Shown here piece after piece: positions 20,933 through 35,158 of a stretch of 35,295 bases of DNA. Position numbers and translations under genes: made by a program. Each line of letters opens with the position of its first letter. The stretch's first letter is position 1. Source of the stretch: an uncultured bacterium (GTDB lineage: Bacteria > Nitrospirota > Thermodesulfovibrionia > Thermodesulfovibrionales > Dissulfurispiraceae); assembly GCA_937949555.1 (NCBI GenBank), contig CALEDV010000042.1, positions 1 to 35,295 of the forward strand, given 5' to 3'. The notes beneath the pieces are model-generated. The model ran no database searches. It was given only the letters and a program-made list of their open reading frames with translations, and was not told where the DNA came from.

Positions 20933-21055
20933 TTTTCTGCAGCCAGGGGCTGGCCCTGCGCAACATATGCCTGTGAACCCCGTCAGGTCCGGAAGGAAGC
21001 AGCGGTAAACTTCGCATCTGTGTGCCGCAGCAAGCCGGTCCCTGTCTGCAGAAAA
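20933..21055 (+). ncRNA. ffs: Signal recognition particle RNA (4.5S type)
   Basis: The apical Ffh-binding signature GTCAGGTCCGGAAGGAAGCA is present at about 20982-21001. The ends pair: TTTTCTGCAG at 20933-20942 with CTGCAGAAAA at 21046-21055, and the helix continues as CAGGG against CCCTG. The RNA is a single long hairpin of about 123 nt without an Alu domain. It guides co-translational membrane targeting with Ffh. It lies directly upstream of dnaX, a common bacterial arrangement. Confidence 0.95.
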
Positions 21056-21070
21056 CAGACAAATCAACCT

Positions 21071-22708
21071 ATGTCATATCTAGTATTAGCAAGAAAATGG
21101 AGACCCCAGCGATTCTCTGAGCTTACAGGCCAGGAATCCATAGCAAGGATTCTGACAAATGCTGCAATATCTGGCAAGGTCGCCCATGCCTATATATTTT
21201 CAGGCCCTCGAGGGGTTGGCAAGACCTCTTCGGCAAGGATACTTGCCAAAACCCTCAACTGCCATAACCCCAATGAAGAAGGTCCCTGCGGCAAATGCCC
21301 CTCTTGCATATCAATAAGCGATGGTTCATCTATGGATGTCATCGAGATAGATGGTGCATCAAACAATAGCGTCAATGACATCAGAGAACTTCGTGAAACT
21401 GTAAAATATGCCCCCTCCTCTTCAAAGTATAAAATTTATATAGTAGATGAGGCACACATGTTGTCCTCTGGTGCCTTCAATGCATTTTTGAAGACCCTTG
21501 AAGAGCCTCCGCCTCATGTGGTCTTTGTGCTCGCTACCACAGAACCACGAAAGATCCCTGTAACTATACTGTCCCGCTGCCAGCATTTGCCATTTAAGAG
21601 AATACCTGCCCTAAAGATAAAAAACAGGCTCAAAGAAATCGCCCTGCAGGAGGGTTATGTAAGCGAAGACCTTGCCCTTGACAGGATTGCCCGCATGGCT
21701 GAGGGCAGTATGAGAGATGCCCTTACCATAATGGACCAAATCATATCCTTTTCAGACTCGCTGAAGTATGAAGACCTTAAGGACCTCTTTGGGCTATCGG
21801 ACACAGAAACCCTTGCGGCATTGACTGAGGCAGTGATTACAGGCAATCACAGAGACATTATCAACATCATCAAGGAACTCGTAGATTCTGGTTACGATAT
21901 AAAGACCTTTACCAAAGATCTAATTATGTTTGTAAGAGGACTCATGCTGAGGCTCGCAGCCGAAGACGAGGAGGCAATTTCAGATATGGATGAGACTGAG
22001 AGGATATCTATCAATAGATTGAGCAGCCTGTCCTCCTTGCCACAGGTTGCCCTTTTTATGAATGAGCTTATAAAAATAGAACTTTCCCTAAGACAGACAC
22101 AGCACCCCAGGGTTATCCTTGAGATGGGACTCCTGAAGATTGCAATGATGAGCCATTTTAGGGACATTGAGGAGATTATAAATAAACTCTCTCAGGGCAA
22201 AACATTAGAGACGAATCCTTCCTTGACAATGCAAATAGGCCCTAACCAAAAAGACTACAGCAAAATCATAACCCCTTCTGCTAAATCCAAAAAGGAATAC
22301 ACTGAAGACAGGCACAACCCCCATCCTCATCCCTCAAAAACTTCTACTGATAATGCCCTTGCATGGCAGGAGGCATTAGCAACTATAGAGCAGCAAAAGG
22401 CACTCCTTGCATCAGGGCTTAGAGAGGGGAGGGTTTCTTTTCCTGAGCCAAATACCCTTGAGTTGTCCTTCAAGGGAGGCGCTTCAGTCCACTCCCATTC
22501 CACAGAAGAGGACATACCTTTTATAAAAGAAACCCTGAGAAAGGTTACCGGCAGAGATTTCACTATCAAGATCAATAATTTACAAGGCACAACAACTCAG
22601 AGGGATATACGCACCGAGGCACGGAACAATCCTGTGGTGCAGGAGGTATTGAGGTTGTATGAAGGCATTATAGTTGATGTAAAGGCAAACAAAAACTCAG
22701 GAGGATAA
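21071..22708 (+). CDS. dnaX: DNA polymerase III subunits gamma/tau
   Basis: This clamp-loader ATPase is 545 aa from the ATG at 21071. An upstream GTG-type extension would run into the SRP RNA and is rejected. The N-terminal AAA+ domain has Walker A GPRGVGKT (45-52), a zinc module of Cys64, Cys73, Cys76 and Cys79, Walker B IVDEAH (Asp126-Glu127) and the SRC arginine-finger motif in LSRCQ. The C-terminal 150 residues are variable and may bind other replisome parts. No Shine-Dalgarno is obvious. It leads the dnaX-ybaB-recR operon. Confidence 0.96.
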   Translation: MSYLVLARKWRPQRFSELTGQESIARILTNAAISGKVAHAYIFSGPRGVGKTSSARILAKTLNCHNPNEEGPCGKCPSCISISDGSSMDVIEIDGASNNSVNDIRELRETVKYAPSSSKYKIYIVDEAHMLSSGAFNAFLKTLEEPPPHVVFVLATTEPRKIPVTILSRCQHLPFKRIPALKIKNRLKEIALQEGYVSEDLALDRIARMAEGSMRDALTIMDQIISFSDSLKYEDLKDLFGLSDTETLAALTEAVITGNHRDIINIIKELVDSGYDIKTFTKDLIMFVRGLMLRLAAEDEEAISDMDETERISINRLSSLSSLPQVALFMNELIKIELSLRQTQHPRVILEMGLLKIAMMSHFRDIEEIINKLSQGKTLETNPSLTMQIGPNQKDYSKIITPSAKSKKEYTEDRHNPHPHPSKTSTDNALAWQEALATIEQQKALLASGLREGRVSFPEPNTLELSFKGGASVHSHSTEEDIPFIKETLRKVTGRDFTIKINNLQGTTTQRDIRTEARNNPVVQEVLRLYEGIIVDVKANKNSGG

Positions 22709-26037: not shown

Positions 26038-26805
26038 CTATTTACATACAACATCAATCTTCCCCGCTGATGCCATATAAACAACGAACTCCTCTACACC
26101 GTCCACCTCTATCAGTTTATCCATCAGAGATTGGTTGTAGGCAGCAATTGCACAGACCCCGCAACCTATAGCCCATGCCGAGAGATAAAGATTTTGACAG
26201 ACATGTCCTATATCAATTGCAATAACCTTATGACTTGCCAGTCCATAACGCCATTCCATCCTGTAAGGTATGGTTGACCAGATAAAATTGACTGCTGCAT
26301 TACCTGTAAAGGACTGTCCAAGGCTCCCTGTAGTAATGCCCTTGTCAATGTGTTCATCAAGTCTTATGGTTATTAGGCTGTGTTCAATAGGCAGATATCG
26401 GTATACCCCCTTTGTCAATCCTTCCACATTTATAGCTGTAATATAGGTCTCAAAACTATGTCTGCATCCAGCAGAGGGGACAGTTCTCAAGGCCACTGCT
26501 GGGTTGATTATCTTTTGTATGCCCTGGGTTGTATAAAGCAAAAAGGATAGTTCCTCCAAGGTCAGAGGTTCTTTCTTAAAAACACGGCAACTCCGCCTGT
26601 TATTGATTGCCTCATATAGAGAGGTCTTCTTATCAATGATAGAATGAAAGTCAGGTAGATTTATTAGATTTATGTTTTCATCATAGGGCTTTTCAATTGG
26701 CGGCGGCTCTAATCCTCTACTCTGATCAGTCTGGGAGAAATCAATCATCTGTCTGATCCTGTCCTTTAAAAAGAATCTAAACTCTTCAATATCCTTTCTT
26801 ATCAT
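26038..26805 (-). CDS. SagB/ThcOx-type nitroreductase family protein
   Basis: This 255-aa FMN-dependent oxidoreductase-like protein contains the family start NNRRSCRVFKKEPLTLEELSFLL, with Arg residues expected to hold the FMN phosphate. It continues with RTVPSAGCRHSFETY and the C-terminal IDIGHVCQNLYLSAWAIGCGVCAI block. In the SagB branch these proteins oxidise azolines in peptide products, but no cyclodehydratase or precursor peptide gene is near. A stand-alone flavin reductase role is equally possible. The start ATG has AGAGGAAGG upstream. Confidence 0.82.
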   Translation of the reverse strand: MIRKDIEEFRFFLKDRIRQMIDFSQTDQSRGLEPPPIEKPYDENINLINLPDFHSIIDKKTSLYEAINNRRSCRVFKKEPLTLEELSFLLYTTQGIQKIINPAVALRTVPSAGCRHSFETYITAINVEGLTKGVYRYLPIEHSLITIRLDEHIDKGITTGSLGQSFTGNAAVNFIWSTIPYRMEWRYGLASHKVIAIDIGHVCQNLYLSAWAIGCGVCAIAAYNQSLMDKLIEVDGVEEFVVYMASAGKIDVVCK

Positions 26806-30907: not shown

Positions 30908-31981
30908 ATGAAGGAAGAAAGCCTCTTTGAATCATTGTTGCGAAGAGGGGTCTCAAGAAGAGACTTTATGAAGTTTTGCACCTCTATGGCTGCAACGCTG
31001 GCACTTCCAACGGCATTCTCTGCACAGATAGCAGAGGCCCTTGAGAAGAAGCAAAAACCCTATGTAGTATGGCTTGAATTGTCAGATTGCGCTGGAGATT
31101 CAGAAGCCATTCTGAGAGCTTCAAGACCCACAATTGGTCAATTAGTCCTTGATGTAATCTCATTAGAATACCATGAGACCATCATGGCGCCCTCTGGTCA
31201 CAGTGCTGAAAAATCGCTACAGGATGTAGTGAAAAACCACAAGGGCAAGTACATTGCAATAGTCGAAGGCGCTATTCCTTTGAAAGATGGCGGTATATAC
31301 TGCACCGTAGGAGGAAGGACAGCCCTTGAGATTGCAAAAGAGGTTTGCGGCAATGCAATGGCTACCTTAGCAGTAGGCTCCTGTGCAAGCTTTGGCGGGG
31401 TAGCAGCAGCCAAACCAAACCCCACACAGTGTGTAGGCGTAAAAGAAGCCCTGCCTTCAGCAACGGTGGTAAATCTGCCTGGCTGTCCAGTGAACCCAGA
31501 AAATGTTACGGCCACAGTTGTCCATTTCTTAACCTTCGGCGCACTTCCAGCCCTTGATAAAAACCATCGTCCTCTTTTTGCATACGGCAAAAGGATCCAT
31601 GACAACTGCGAGAGAAGACCTCACTTTGATGCCGGCCAGTTCGTGAAGAAATGGGGCGATGAAGGGCACAGATTAGGATGGTGTCTCTATGAGGTAGGTT
31701 GTAAAGGGCCTCAAGCCTATATGAACTGCCCAACAATCAGGTATAACGAAGGCACAAGTTGGCCTGTAATGGCAGGACATCCTTGTTTTGCCTGTGCAAT
31801 GCCTCAAAGTTGGGATGCCCTAGGCCCTATATACAGCAGGCTTCCAAATGTACCAGGCGCAAGCTATCAGGCAACGGCTGACAAGGTCGGTGTAGCCGTA
31901 GTAGGAGCAGCAGCAGCAGGTGTTGCAGCCCATGCAATAATCAGAGCCTCTACTTCAAAGGGAAAGCAGGAAGATAAATAA
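30908..31981 (+). CDS. hyaA: [NiFe] hydrogenase small subunit with Asp in the proximal cluster site
   Basis: This 357-aa electron-transfer subunit starts with a twin-arginine signal SRRDFMKF (16-23) and a hydrophobic stretch, and ends with a membrane-anchoring helix (about 327-347). It is therefore exported folded and faces the periplasm. Fe-S ligands are visible. Proximal: Cys61, Cys159 (GSCASFGG) and Cys193 (PGCPVNP). Distal: His231, Cys234, Cys259 and Cys265. Medial: Cys274, Cys293 and Cys296. The fourth proximal ligand of the usual CxxC is Asp64 here (CAGDSE, codon GAT). A 3Cys-1Asp proximal cluster is known in the actinobacterial-type hydrogenases, so this is a plausible functional variant. 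AAAAGGAGGGG precedes the ATG. The large subunit follows 44 bp later. Confidence 0.95.
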   Translation: MKEESLFESLLRRGVSRRDFMKFCTSMAATLALPTAFSAQIAEALEKKQKPYVVWLELSDCAGDSEAILRASRPTIGQLVLDVISLEYHETIMAPSGHSAEKSLQDVVKNHKGKYIAIVEGAIPLKDGGIYCTVGGRTALEIAKEVCGNAMATLAVGSCASFGGVAAAKPNPTQCVGVKEALPSATVVNLPGCPVNPENVTATVVHFLTFGALPALDKNHRPLFAYGKRIHDNCERRPHFDAGQFVKKWGDEGHRLGWCLYEVGCKGPQAYMNCPTIRYNEGTSWPVMAGHPCFACAMPQSWDALGPIYSRLPNVPGASYQATADKVGVAVVGAAAAGVAAHAIIRASTSKGKQEDK

Positions 31982-32025: not shown

Positions 32026-33735
32026 ATGGCAAAAATAGCAATAGACCCAGTAACAAGGATTGAAGGCCACCTTAGATTAGAAGTTGAGATTGACGGAGGC
32101 AAGGTAAAAGATGCCTGGGCATCAGGAACGATGTGGAGAGGCATGGAACTTATTGTAAAAAACAGGGATCCCAGAGAGGTCTGGGCAATACTATCCCGTA
32201 TATGAGGGGTCTGAACAACGGTTCATTCCACCAGCTCCGTGAGAGCTGTAGAAAACGCCCTTGGAATCACAATCCCAGAGAATGCAAGGATTATAAGAAA
32301 CATTATTTCAGGCATACAGTACGTACAGGACCATGTTATTCATTTTTATCATCTTCATGCCCTTGACTGGGTAGATGTTACAGGTGCATTAAAGGCTGAC
32401 CCTGCAAAGACAGCAGCCCTTGCACAGACAATCTCAGATTGGCCCAACAGCTCCCCTGTATATTTCAAGGCAGTCCAGGGGAAGGTCAAGGCGCTTGTGG
32501 AGAGCGGACAATTAGGCATATTCGCCAATGGATACTGGGGGCATCCAGCATACAAGCTTCCACCTGAGGCAAACCTAATGGCAGTAGCGCATTACCTTGA
32601 GGCATTAGAGTGGCAGAAAGAGGTTATAAAGATGCAGGCATTCCTGGGCGCCAAAAACCCCCATCCTCAGACCTTCCTTGTAGGCGGTATGGCAATGCCC
32701 ATTGATCCTAACAGCCAAAATGCCATAAATGCAGGTTCTTTGGCTTTAATGCTTGATCTTGCTAAGAAGGCTCAAGACTTTGTGGAAAAGGTATATATCC
32801 CTGATCTCCTTGCTGTGGCAAGCTTCTATAAGGATTGGGCATCCATAGGTGGCGGAGTTCCTAACTATTTATCCTATGGCGAGTTTCAGCAAGACACAAA
32901 GAGCAACACTACAAATTGCTGGCTTCCTGCAGGCTTTATACGCAACAGGGACCTCAGCAAGGTAGAACCAGTGGACCACAAAAAAGTCACAGAAGATGTT
33001 GCCTATGCATGGTATAAGTACAGCGACGATGACAAGAAGGGCAAACATCCTTGGGATGGCGAATCTACACCTAACTACACAGGGCCCAAACCGCCCTATG
33101 AGTTTCTCGATACATCCAATAAATACTCCTGGGTAAAGGCAATAAGGTACGACGGACTATCTACAGAGGTTGGACCCCTTTCAAGGATGTTAGTTGCTTA
33201 CGCAAGCGGTCATAAGAGGGTGAAGGAAGTGGTTGATATGGTGCTTGGCAAACTTGGTGTGGGTCCTGCAGCCCTGTTCTCCACATTAGGGCGTACCGCA
33301 GCAAGGGGTATTGAGACACTGGTAACTGCTGAGATGCTCCCTGTATGGATAAATGAGCTTGCAGCCAACATGAAAAAGGGCGACCTAAAGATACACAGCG
33401 GCGACAAGTGGGATCCCTCTACCTGGCCCGCAGAGGCAAAGGGTTATGGTTTTCATGAGGCGCCTCGTGGCGCCCTATGTCATTGGGTGGTAATCAAAGA
33501 CAAGAAGGTTGCCAATTATCAATGTGTAGTGCCAGGCGGATGGAACTCAGCTCCACGGGACGCAAAGGGGCAAAGGGGACCCTTTGAGGAATCACTCATT
33601 GGAACACCCATAGCAGACCCTAAGAAGCCTATTGAGATTCTGAGGACTATCCATTCCTTTGACCCATGTATGGCATGCGCTATCCATATTGTTGATAAGG
33701 AAGGCAACGAGTTAATCAAGGTAAGGGCAAAATAA
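32026..33735 (+). CDS. hyaB: [NiFe] hydrogenase large subunit with two in-frame TGA codons (putative double selenocysteine)
   Basis: This is the catalytic H2-activating subunit, 569 residues if both TGA codons are read. The ATG at 32026 has AAAGGAGG upstream. The frame is continuous with the ORF opening at 32239 (213 nt, 71 codons), so there is no frameshift. Codons 60 (32203-32205) and 63 (32212-32214) are TGA. They occupy the two cysteines of the L1 nickel-ligand motif, RIxGVxTTVH (58-67), which normally reads RxCGxCxxxH. The flanking sequence is intact: RIEGH with Glu13 upstream, SSVRAVENALG downstream. The C-terminal L2 motif DPCMACAIH (546-554) has normal Cys codons, TGT and TGC. The 15 residues after His554 are the maturation peptide removed by the protease encoded downstream. 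Selenocysteine at both sites is my inference. A pseudogene is the alternative. Confidence 0.85.
32226..32253 (+). promoter_or_regulatory. SECIS-like hairpin after the hydrogenase TGA codons
   Basis: A perfect 6-bp stem CAGCTC/GAGCTG (32232-32237, 32243-32248) closes a five-base loop CGTGA with G as its second base. It extends through A-T and TTC/GAA pairs with a bulged C and one mismatch. The loop begins 23 nt after the second TGA and 32 nt after the first, within the distance range expected for bacterial SECIS elements. Confidence 0.5.
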
Positions 33736-33747
33736 GGAGGCTATAAA

Positions 33748-34401
33748 ATGGCACGAGAATATATCTGGGAAGTGCCTGTAAGGGTAACACACTGGGTAAA
33801 TGTAATAAGCATCCTTGCCCTTTCAATAACAGGCCTGTACATAGGAGATCCCTATGCACAAGGGGCTGACGAGCACTCAATGCTAATGGGCAAGATGAGG
33901 TTCTTTCACTTTATATTTGCTTATATCTTTATTGCCAGCCTGATTGTTAGGGTCTACTGGTGGTTTGTGGGCAACAAGTATGCCCGTCTTGACCAGTTTA
34001 TACCCTTAAGTGGAGAGCGATGGAAGAACCTAATTGACACAGCTTTGTTTTATGGTTTTATGAAGAAGGACCTGCCTCACTCCCCTGGACATACAGGGCT
34101 AGCGGGATTTACCTACTTCTTCTTAATTCTGCTCTTTGTATTAGAGATAATAACGGGATTTGCACTCTATTCACAGAGTCATGAAGGAGGGGCTATATGG
34201 ACACTGCTTGGTGGATGGATGTTGCCAGTGCTTGGTGTAGGCATGGTGCGTTTTATACATCATGTTATAATGTGGCTTATTGCAGTGTTTGTGATAATCC
34301 ATGTGTATATTTCAGTGCACAACAATATCATTGAGAAAAACAGTCTTGTAATGTCCATATTCAATGGATACAAAAACTTCCAGGACAGGCAGCATCATTG
34401 A
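33748..34401 (+). CDS. hyaC: Hydrogenase cytochrome b subunit
   Basis: This 217-aa integral membrane di-heme cytochrome b of the HyaC/HupC type passes electrons from the hydrogenase to the quinone pool. Four membrane helices are visible, at about 15-33, 52-74, 118-141 and 168-191. Candidate heme ligands are His15, His54, His171/His172 and His185. It starts 12 bp after the large subunit with AAGGAGG upstream. Its TGA stop overlaps the TTG start of the protease gene. Presence of this subunit argues for respiratory H2 uptake at the membrane. Confidence 0.94.
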   Translation: MAREYIWEVPVRVTHWVNVISILALSITGLYIGDPYAQGADEHSMLMGKMRFFHFIFAYIFIASLIVRVYWWFVGNKYARLDQFIPLSGERWKNLIDTALFYGFMKKDLPHSPGHTGLAGFTYFFLILLFVLEIITGFALYSQSHEGGAIWTLLGGWMLPVLGVGMVRFIHHVIMWLIAVFVIIHVYISVHNNIIEKNSLVMSIFNGYKNFQDRQHH

Positions 34402-34886
34402 AAACTGTCCTAATTGGTCTTGGAAATATAGTTCTCAGTGATGAAGGTATCGGGGTCCATGCAATAAACGTCATTAAGCAAAGGTGTACCTTTGAACCTC
34501 CTGTGGAGGTAGTGGATGGCGGCACACTGGGCCTCGACCTTCTCTCCTATTTTGAGGGAAAAGATGCGGTAGTCATTGTTGATGCCGTAAACTTCAATAG
34601 AGAGCCAGGATTCATTTCAATCCTAAGAGATGAAGAGATACCTTCTACCATTAATATGAAACTGACAGTGCATCATATAGGGCTTTCGGATATACTTTCC
34701 TCTCTGCGTCTGCTTGGCAAAAGCCCAAAGCAAATTATCCTTGTGGGCATTCAGCCTGAATCCCTTGAGATGGGGCTTGAGATGACCCATACCCTAAAAT
34801 CAAGACTAAAAGAGGTTGTAGATACAACAATAGAACAATTAAAGGAGATAGGCCACAGATGTGTCTCGCAATCCCCTCAAAGATAA
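34398..34886 (+). CDS. hyaD: Hydrogenase maturation endopeptidase
   Basis: This 162-aa HyaD/HybD-type protease cleaves the C-terminal extension of the large subunit after nickel insertion. GLGNIVLSDEGIGVH at the N-terminus carries Glu16, and Asp62 (VDAVNF) and His92/His93 complete the nickel-sensing site. The start must be the TTG at 34398, because no other start precedes the conserved GIGN-like motif. It overlaps the cytochrome stop by 4 bp. Its presence fits the intact 15-residue extension of the large subunit and argues that the latter is a working gene. Confidence 0.93.
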   Translation: MKTVLIGLGNIVLSDEGIGVHAINVIKQRCTFEPPVEVVDGGTLGLDLLSYFEGKDAVVIVDAVNFNREPGFISILRDEEIPSTINMKLTVHHIGLSDILSSLRLLGKSPKQIILVGIQPESLEMGLEMTHTLKSRLKEVVDTTIEQLKEIGHRCVSQSPQR

Positions 34887-35158
34887 TAAGCATTGACAAC
34901 CTTATGGCAACTGTTGATATCTATGGTGCCCGTAGAGATGTTAGTCTTATGTTAATGCCTGAGGAGGCACAGGTAGGAGAGTATGTGCTCGTTCATGCAG
35001 GCTTTGCCCTCCAGAAGATAGATGAGGAGGCAGCCATGGAGTCCCTTAAACTACTAAAAGAATATGAAGAACTCCTTGCCCAAGAAGAAGAGAACTACTT
35101 TAATACCCAGGAGGATCCCTATCCCAAGGGAAATACTATTTCCGAGATCCAGCGATAA
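34859..35158 (+). CDS. hypC: Hydrogenase assembly chaperone HypC/HupF family
   Basis: This 99-aa chaperone begins MCLAIPSKI, with the essential Cys2 that carries the Fe(CN)2CO precursor with HypD. His46 lies in VHAGFALQKID. The C-terminal 35 residues are an acidic extension (EYEELLAQEEEN). It overlaps hyaD by 28 bp in another frame. HypA, B, D, E and F are not in the window and may lie elsewhere. Confidence 0.93.
   Translation: MCLAIPSKIISIDNLMATVDIYGARRDVSLMLMPEEAQVGEYVLVHAGFALQKIDEEAAMESLKLLKEYEELLAQEEENYFNTQEDPYPKGNTISEIQR

Follow-up and report, generated by a model that had tools for sequence, protein, structure and literature searches.

A [NiFe] hydrogenase class with two predicted selenocysteines at the L1 nickel ligands, probably served by a single SECIS hairpin

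The [NiFeSe] hydrogenases, such as HysAB of Desulfovibrio vulgaris and Desulfomicrobium baculatum and FrhA/VhuU of methanogens, use a UGA-encoded selenocysteine (Sec) as a nickel ligand. In their alpha subunits a single Sec sits in the UxxC (L2) motif near the C terminus (PMC13188914). Single Sec residues have also been placed at nickel ligands in the laboratory: E. coli Hyd-2 variants with Sec at Cys61, 64, 546 or 549 were all active, at lower levels (PMC11212049), and in Hyd-1 Sec lowered H2 oxidation at any position and raised O2 tolerance at its natural place (PMC9961374). According to a 2025 review, Sec occasionally substitutes one of the cysteines in hydrogenases (PMC12134894). Bacterial UxxU selenoproteins (Prx-like, FmdB-like and a putative mercuric reductase) also have two UGAs two residues apart; they belong to other families, with no hydrogenase among those described in the available text (PMC13188914, PMC2398784). 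In the synthetic complex [NiFe('S2Se2')(CO)3], a selenolate links the Ni and Fe atoms and a second one is a terminal Ni ligand, the very set predicted below, but it is a small molecule with thioether donors and a mimic of the one-Sec enzyme (PMC4510704). We found no natural hydrogenase carrying Sec at L1 in the full-text literature searched; as this covered a minority of subscription papers and preprints, an earlier mention is possible. Nor did such an enzyme appear in the available parts of PMC9312934, PMC9499178, PMC12013277, PMC11227280, PMC9469722, PMC1794560, PMC10779653 and PMC6258894.

We analysed a 35,295-nucleotide stretch of DNA from an uncultured Nitrospirota bacterium (the window). 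An earlier note on this DNA had described a hydrogenase large-subunit frame running from ATG 32026 to 33735 and broken by TGA at codons 60 and 63 only, both at L1 nickel-ligand cysteines, with Cys codons in the C-terminal DPCxxC motif and with matched maturation genes following. Translation, alignment and profile matches bore out each of these points (Table 1). The note had further held that known [NiFeSe] enzymes carry one Sec in the C-terminal motif and that no natural enzyme with Sec at both L1 positions had been described, in agreement with a 2026 review of prokaryotic selenoproteins (PMC13188914) and with the literature searched, within the limits given above.

Table 1. Features of the hydrogenase locus in the window and of the second-branch UGA genes
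Feature	Position	Strand	Evidence or remark
Hydrogenase small subunit with twin-arginine signal	30908-31981	+	TIGR00391 451 bits; TIGR01409
[NiFe] hydrogenase large subunit	32026-33735	+	569 residues with both UGAs read through; PF00374 777 bits; nearest solved chain 3myr_B
UGA codon 60, first L1 ligand position	32203-32205	+	translation and relatives
UGA codon 63, second L1 ligand position	32212-32214	+	translation and relatives
Predicted SECIS hairpin	32220-32259	+	-10.5 kcal/mol; loop starts 23 nt (UGA63) and 32 nt (UGA60) downstream of the two codons
Hairpin core CAGCUC-CGUGA-GAGCUG	32232-32248	+	family conservation
GTG codon 72 in hairpin loop	32239-32241	+	false start of 498-residue ORF 32239-33735, which lacks L1
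L2 motif CMAC, TGT and TGC codons	33667-33678	+	sequence and alignment of relatives
b-type cytochrome of hydrogenase	33748-34401	+	TIGR02125 168 bits, cut-off 121.5
Maturation protease, HyaD/HybD type	34398-34886	+	TIGR00072 144 bits; PF01750
HypC-type maturation chaperone	34859-35158	+	PF01455 97 bits
Branch-2 UGA genes	L131:2130-3815; L132; L134-L142; L040:2077-3762		codon reading

Translated with TGA as U, the frame contains exactly two in-frame stops, ends with TAA and reads SRIUGVUTTVHS in the L1 segment, with U60 and U63. A ribosome-binding-like sequence, aaaggaggt, lies just 5' of the ATG. The L1 motif supplies two of the four nickel ligands, and codons 60 and 63 are its cysteine positions: U60 and U63 align with the RICGVC cysteines of 3myr_B, the Allochromatium vinosum chain. 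By the ligand roles in [NiFe] hydrogenases, position 60 is presumably a terminal Ni ligand and position 63 presumably bridges Ni and Fe. PF00374 covers the whole protein (profile positions 1-508 of 508) and 3myr_B aligned to residues 3-554 (697 bits), from which the fold is plain. The in-frame UGAs thus stand opposite Cys of homologues, as is typical of selenoproteins, and the L1 motif matches RxCGxC only if Sec is counted as Cys. L2 is intact as DPCMAC, with TGT at codon 548 and TGC at codon 551.

These features set the enzyme apart from both described types. The [NiFeSe] enzymes have a single Sec at L2, whereas the window enzyme has two UGAs at the N-terminal L1 and Cys at both L2 positions; the first L2 codon, where HysA-type enzymes have Sec, is the TGT of codon 548. 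Its large subunit scored 407 bits with the HysA-type model NF045518 (cut-off 780) and 550 bits with NF033181 (cut-off 600). The all-Cys Group 1 [NiFe] enzymes (3myr_B, E. coli Hyd-2) share the fold, the operon, the L2 motif and the rest of L1, but they have TGT/TGC at both L1 codons. In engineered Hyd-2, Sec was tolerated at each L1 position (PMC11212049), but these were single laboratory substitutions made through UAG, whereas the window has both positions naturally as UGA.

The last five genes of the window form a hydrogenase operon comprising the small subunit, the large subunit, the cytochrome, the protease and HypC. Among related genes with UGA at both L1 codons, the small subunit lay directly upstream in 71 of the 72 with enough sequence, and the genes that could be tested were followed by a cytochrome in 77/82, a protease in 52/59 and HypC in 30/53 cases. 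Because the small subunit has a twin-arginine signal and the operon includes a b-type cytochrome, the window enzyme is likely membrane-bound and H2-oxidising, feeding the quinone pool. Elsewhere in the window, a bacterial small SRP RNA (20947-21044, plus strand; Rfam RF00169, 66 bits) overlaps GTG 21020 of a dnaX-like ORF (21020-22708), the true start of which is probably further in, and a gene on the minus strand (26038-26805) encodes a SagB-family nitroreductase-like dehydrogenase (TIGR03605, 115 bits).

We then asked how UGA is used beyond this gene. Among the 28 window ORFs taken as genes, the large subunit was the only one with in-frame stops, and TGA terminates 6 of the 28. TGA is therefore an ordinary stop in this genome, and genome-wide reassignment of UGA is ruled out.

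The earlier note had argued that two random nonsense changes were unlikely to land on just these codons. Given two random nonsense codons in 569, the chance of hitting exactly codons 60 and 63 is about 6e-6; the recurrence of both TGAs in relatives is more telling. We collected relatives from a one-genome-per-species scan (best 80 loci of at least 581 confirmed stretches) and from 150 same-class genomes searched whole, took tblastn matches with E ≤1e-40 that span codon 60 and have all four ligand codons readable, and merged identical genes. In the resulting 144 distinct large subunits, codons 60/63 were UGA/UGA (UU) in 84, Cys/UGA (CU) in 17 and Cys/Cys (CC) in 43; the UGA/Cys state was found in 0 of the 144. 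Both L2 codons were Cys in all 144 genes, and none of the 101 UGA genes had a further stop in the aligned stretch. The alignment of relatives that the note had proposed thus gave TGA or Cys at both columns and no stops elsewhere. Purifying selection acts downstream of the UGAs: when the window gene was compared with six relatives, dN was 0.05-0.13 over codons 64-565, with dS saturated, and 0.02-0.18 over codons 3-59. The window comes from a draft assembly of 85 contigs, and a pseudogene or a sequencing or assembly error might be suspected on that ground. However, the same two codons recur in the 84 distinct genes from many assemblies, other stops are absent and selection persists downstream; recurrence and selection rule this explanation out, and we give it practically no credence.

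In the class, a large subunit (E ≤1e-100) was present in 108 of the 150 genomes, 63 of which have the form with two TGAs and 14 the form with one (codons were read for 62 of the 63, G017 being left out, and for all 14). Besides Nitrospirota, UU genes occurred in seven Chloroflexota records. UU or CU genes also occurred in four records titled Proteobacteria, Deltaproteobacteria or Thermodesulfobacteriota (L007, L008, L025 and L044; titles as deposited, and the bins may be misnamed). The L1-UGA trait is thus common to dozens of relatives in at least two bacterial phyla. Plasmid records gave 149 matches, every one below 60% identity. In a search for Sec at L1 of other [NiFe] groups, the partial-profile matches listed in 81 class genomes were without stops, except for a fragment in G067. 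The large subunit of G067 lies in two distant pieces (C1:668865-669329 and 248053-249255), the N-terminal piece with 2 TGA; this split is either a rearrangement or an assembly fault.

A quickly built maximum-likelihood phylogeny of the 144 proteins, with 39 of its 141 forks open, required at least 11 changes among the three L1 states, versus a mean of 52 after shuffling. UU and Cys genes formed sister pairs (L048 with L059, support 100; L055 with L061, support 86). Because both forms interleave on the tree, UGA and Cys have replaced each other at the L1 codons more than once, a repeated exchange as expected of Sec and Cys.

A second branch of the tree comprises 12 UGA genes with 47-50% identity to the window protein. 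Eleven have UGA at codon 63 only and one, L131, has it at both codons; L130, L133 and L143, beside them on the tree, are Cys/Cys. The operon of L139 is of the Hyb type, with genes for a small subunit, a ferredoxin-like protein, an NrfD-like protein, the large subunit and a protease. The ferredoxin-like gene of this operon (L139:6753-7880, minus strand) reads through two TGAs near its end when TGA is translated as U, probably its real stop and then an accidental continuation into the part shared with the following gene.

If the UGAs are decoded as Sec, a SECIS element is expected downstream. The hairpin predicted in the window has both of its loop distances, 23 and 32 nt, inside the 16-37 nt that published criteria allow (PMC13188914), is more stable than -7.5 kcal/mol (at -10.5 kcal/mol) and has a G in the first two positions of its loop, CGUGA. 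To see whether it is conserved, we scanned synonymous codon identity in 83 main-branch UU, 38 CC and 11 branch-2 CU genes (6 main-branch CU genes, L131 and 5 distant CC genes were left out). In the 83 UU genes, identity reached 0.72 at codons 63-72, the top of 554 windows, against a gene mean of 0.425 outside codons 55-85. The best windows of the 38 Cys genes start at codons 144 (0.64) and 486 (0.62), and of their eight highest windows just one is near the motif, beginning at codon 51, ahead of it. The loop was GGUGA, CGUGA or CGUGC in 88 of the 89 main-branch U genes. Codons 70 and 74, on opposite arms, covary as AGC/GCT, TGC/GCA, GCC/GGC and GCT/AGC, and also as GCC/GCG, where the register is shifted and a C bulges out; these changes partly alter amino acids.

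We measured this covariation on the 30 distinct stems of the 89 main-branch U genes. Total stem pairing exceeded that of all 5000 shuffles of the 3' arms in each of three ways of counting, with shuffles that ignore the kinship of the rows and with a measure, total pairing on distinct stems, chosen after the result of a threshold shuffle was known; that shuffle, in which the register could be chosen freely, gave no significant result (148/1000). Folding with the hairpin constrained gave a median of -8.2 kcal/mol in the 89 U genes versus -3.5 in the 38 Cys genes, and the constrained hairpin beat synonymous resampling at the 5% level in 50/89 of the former versus 3/38 of the latter. Unconstrained folding of codons 65-79 showed no excess in the main set (significant at the 5% level in 1/83 UU, 0/6 CU and 2/38 CC genes) and was significant in 9/12 branch-2 genes. 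A loose bSECIS model, applied from codon 63, was passed by 73/83 UU, 6/6 CU and 12/12 branch-2 U genes, but discriminates poorly, being passed also by 24/38 main-branch and 4/5 distant Cys genes. The case for the hairpin thus rests on codon freezing, the fixed loop and total covariation. Freezing and covariation are specific to the UGA genes, and the Cys relatives lack a frozen hairpin.

The second branch has a very stable stem of its own, GCACUG-GCUU-CAGUGC, that differs from that of the main branch (median -12.5 kcal/mol). The constrained hairpin beat synonymous resampling in 12/12 branch-2 U genes versus 0/3 Cys genes, and synonymous codon identity in the 11 scanned genes peaked at 0.91 at codons 67-76, the top of 525 windows.

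One hairpin might still serve one codon. Only UGA63 could be usefully read as Sec, with UGA60 poorly read or the true product carrying one Sec; the 17 genes with Cys60/UGA63, the lack of any gene with the reverse arrangement, and the shorter distance from the hairpin to codon 63 (23 versus 32 nt) would fit. However, both distances are inside the published 16-37 nt (PMC13188914), UGA60 is kept in 84 genes though a Cys codon is one base away, and without decoding of UGA60 there would be no full-length protein. We consider it very improbable that UGA63 alone is usefully read. The occurrence of UGA63-only but never UGA60-only genes points either to the chemistry of the likely Ni-Fe-bridging position or to the better hairpin distance.

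The hairpin loop also contains a GTG, and translation might stop at the UGAs and restart there (GTG 32239), so that the real product would be a 498-residue protein without L1. This is what the gene finder predicts. Of the best 120 matches among 8000 candidates scored in a predicted-protein database, 70 begin after codon 63 (48 at codon 72, 19 at codon 75 and 3 elsewhere), and the 48 agree with a restart at this GTG. Against a restart, codons 1-59 show in most comparisons the same degree of constraint as the remainder of the gene, codons 60 and 63 are only ever UGA or Cys, two of the four nickel ligands would go, and the conservation of the GTG is explained otherwise by its place in the hairpin loop. 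A restart is thus extremely unlikely. The other 50 of these 120 matches are full-length, and both of their L1 residues are Cys. U and X are absent from all 120, although a U recorded as C would escape notice, and their source names are plain hydrogenase large subunit. Gene predictions therefore hide the UGA hydrogenases, because the predicted proteins start after the TGAs.

We next looked for the machinery of Sec insertion. A search of the window genome for selA, selB, selC and selD, which the earlier note had proposed, found all four: selA scored 608 bits (cut-off 268), selB 355 (cut-off 242), selD 320 (cut-off 125) and the tRNA-Sec 67 (cut-off 47), with the anticodon tca according to ARAGORN. 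The selD gene itself has an in-frame TGA, at SAGUAGK (L224:393-1397, minus strand; G000:C48), and is likely a selenoprotein gene too, a second sign of Sec insertion in this genome. Across the class, selA matched in 74 of the 77 genomes that carry a UGA hydrogenase (above the cut-off in 73; no match in G051, G093 and G120) versus 65 of 73 others (above it in 64). Its presence is thus consistent with Sec insertion but hardly specific, being nearly as common without a UGA hydrogenase. In the named records, selA was over the cut-off in 11 of 12 UGA carriers, with a fragment only in G154, and in 2 of 3 Cys carriers. The tRNA-Sec model matched 126 of the 150 class genomes, a count that says little because it also matched all 14 control genomes, 5 of them over the cut-off.

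Some bacteria are reported to possess UCA-reading tRNA-Cys variants, and such a suppressor could read the UGAs as cysteine, making the enzyme an ordinary [NiFe] hydrogenase. Relatives with Cys at both codons are compatible with this. Our scan of all 35 tRNA matches in the genome found no UCA-reading tRNA other than tRNA-Sec, and the tRNA-Cys has the anticodon gca. This argues weakly against the suppressor: the assembly reaches 88.9% completeness, and since Trp and Tyr tRNAs are likewise absent from the matches, the tRNA set is incomplete and a missing tRNA proves little. A hairpin conserved at SECIS distance would, however, be purposeless under cysteine suppression, which we regard as very unlikely.

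Taken together, the window very probably encodes a [NiFe] hydrogenase with two selenocysteines at L1, and a single predicted SECIS likely acts on the two UGAs; of the readings considered, this one has by far the strongest case. Both L1 UGA codons would be read as Sec, the one hairpin, with its loop 23 and 32 bases downstream, recruiting SelB and tRNA-Sec for each UGA in turn. The mature enzyme would hold nickel by two selenolates (Sec60 and Sec63) and two thiolates (Cys548 and Cys551). By homology with solved hydrogenases and their ligand roles, Sec60 would be a terminal ligand of nickel, and the bridge between Ni and Fe would be formed by Sec63. The selenolates would likely tune redox behaviour and recovery from oxidation, at another place than the single Sec of the [NiFeSe] enzymes.

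The window genome also keeps an all-Cys large subunit (L147:4641-6335, minus strand; G000:C39; 73-74% identical), as do G050 and G108. This paralogue is followed by genes for a b-type cytochrome, a C_GCAxxG_C_C protein and a YedE-type sulphur/selenium transporter-like protein; no small subunit gene lies beside it, or beside its relatives L186 and L187, within the sequence examined. Our guess is that the UGA and all-Cys forms are used according to selenium supply.

With considerable confidence, we see here a natural and widespread class of di-Sec [NiFe] hydrogenases, in which one terminal and one bridging ligand would be Sec, two UGAs nine bases apart would share one covarying SECIS, and members occur in Nitrospirota, Chloroflexota and a Hyb-type branch, unnoticed because of where gene finders place the starts. 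Public gene sets accordingly seem to contain, as a truncated protein, a hydrogenase that is common in Nitrospirota. For the study of translation, the class provides a natural example of two UGAs that lie nine bases apart and possibly depend on a single hairpin. Hydrogenase chemists have probed the role of every nickel ligand by introducing Sec singly; the original study of Hyd-1 Sec variants is reportedly that of Evans in 2021. Nature has apparently run a different experiment, in which the two L1 positions, of which one is a likely Ni-Fe bridge, are Sec together across dozens of lineages, with Cys sister enzymes as controls. Such natural L1-Sec enzymes with Cys sisters would make it directly testable why selenium sits where it does.
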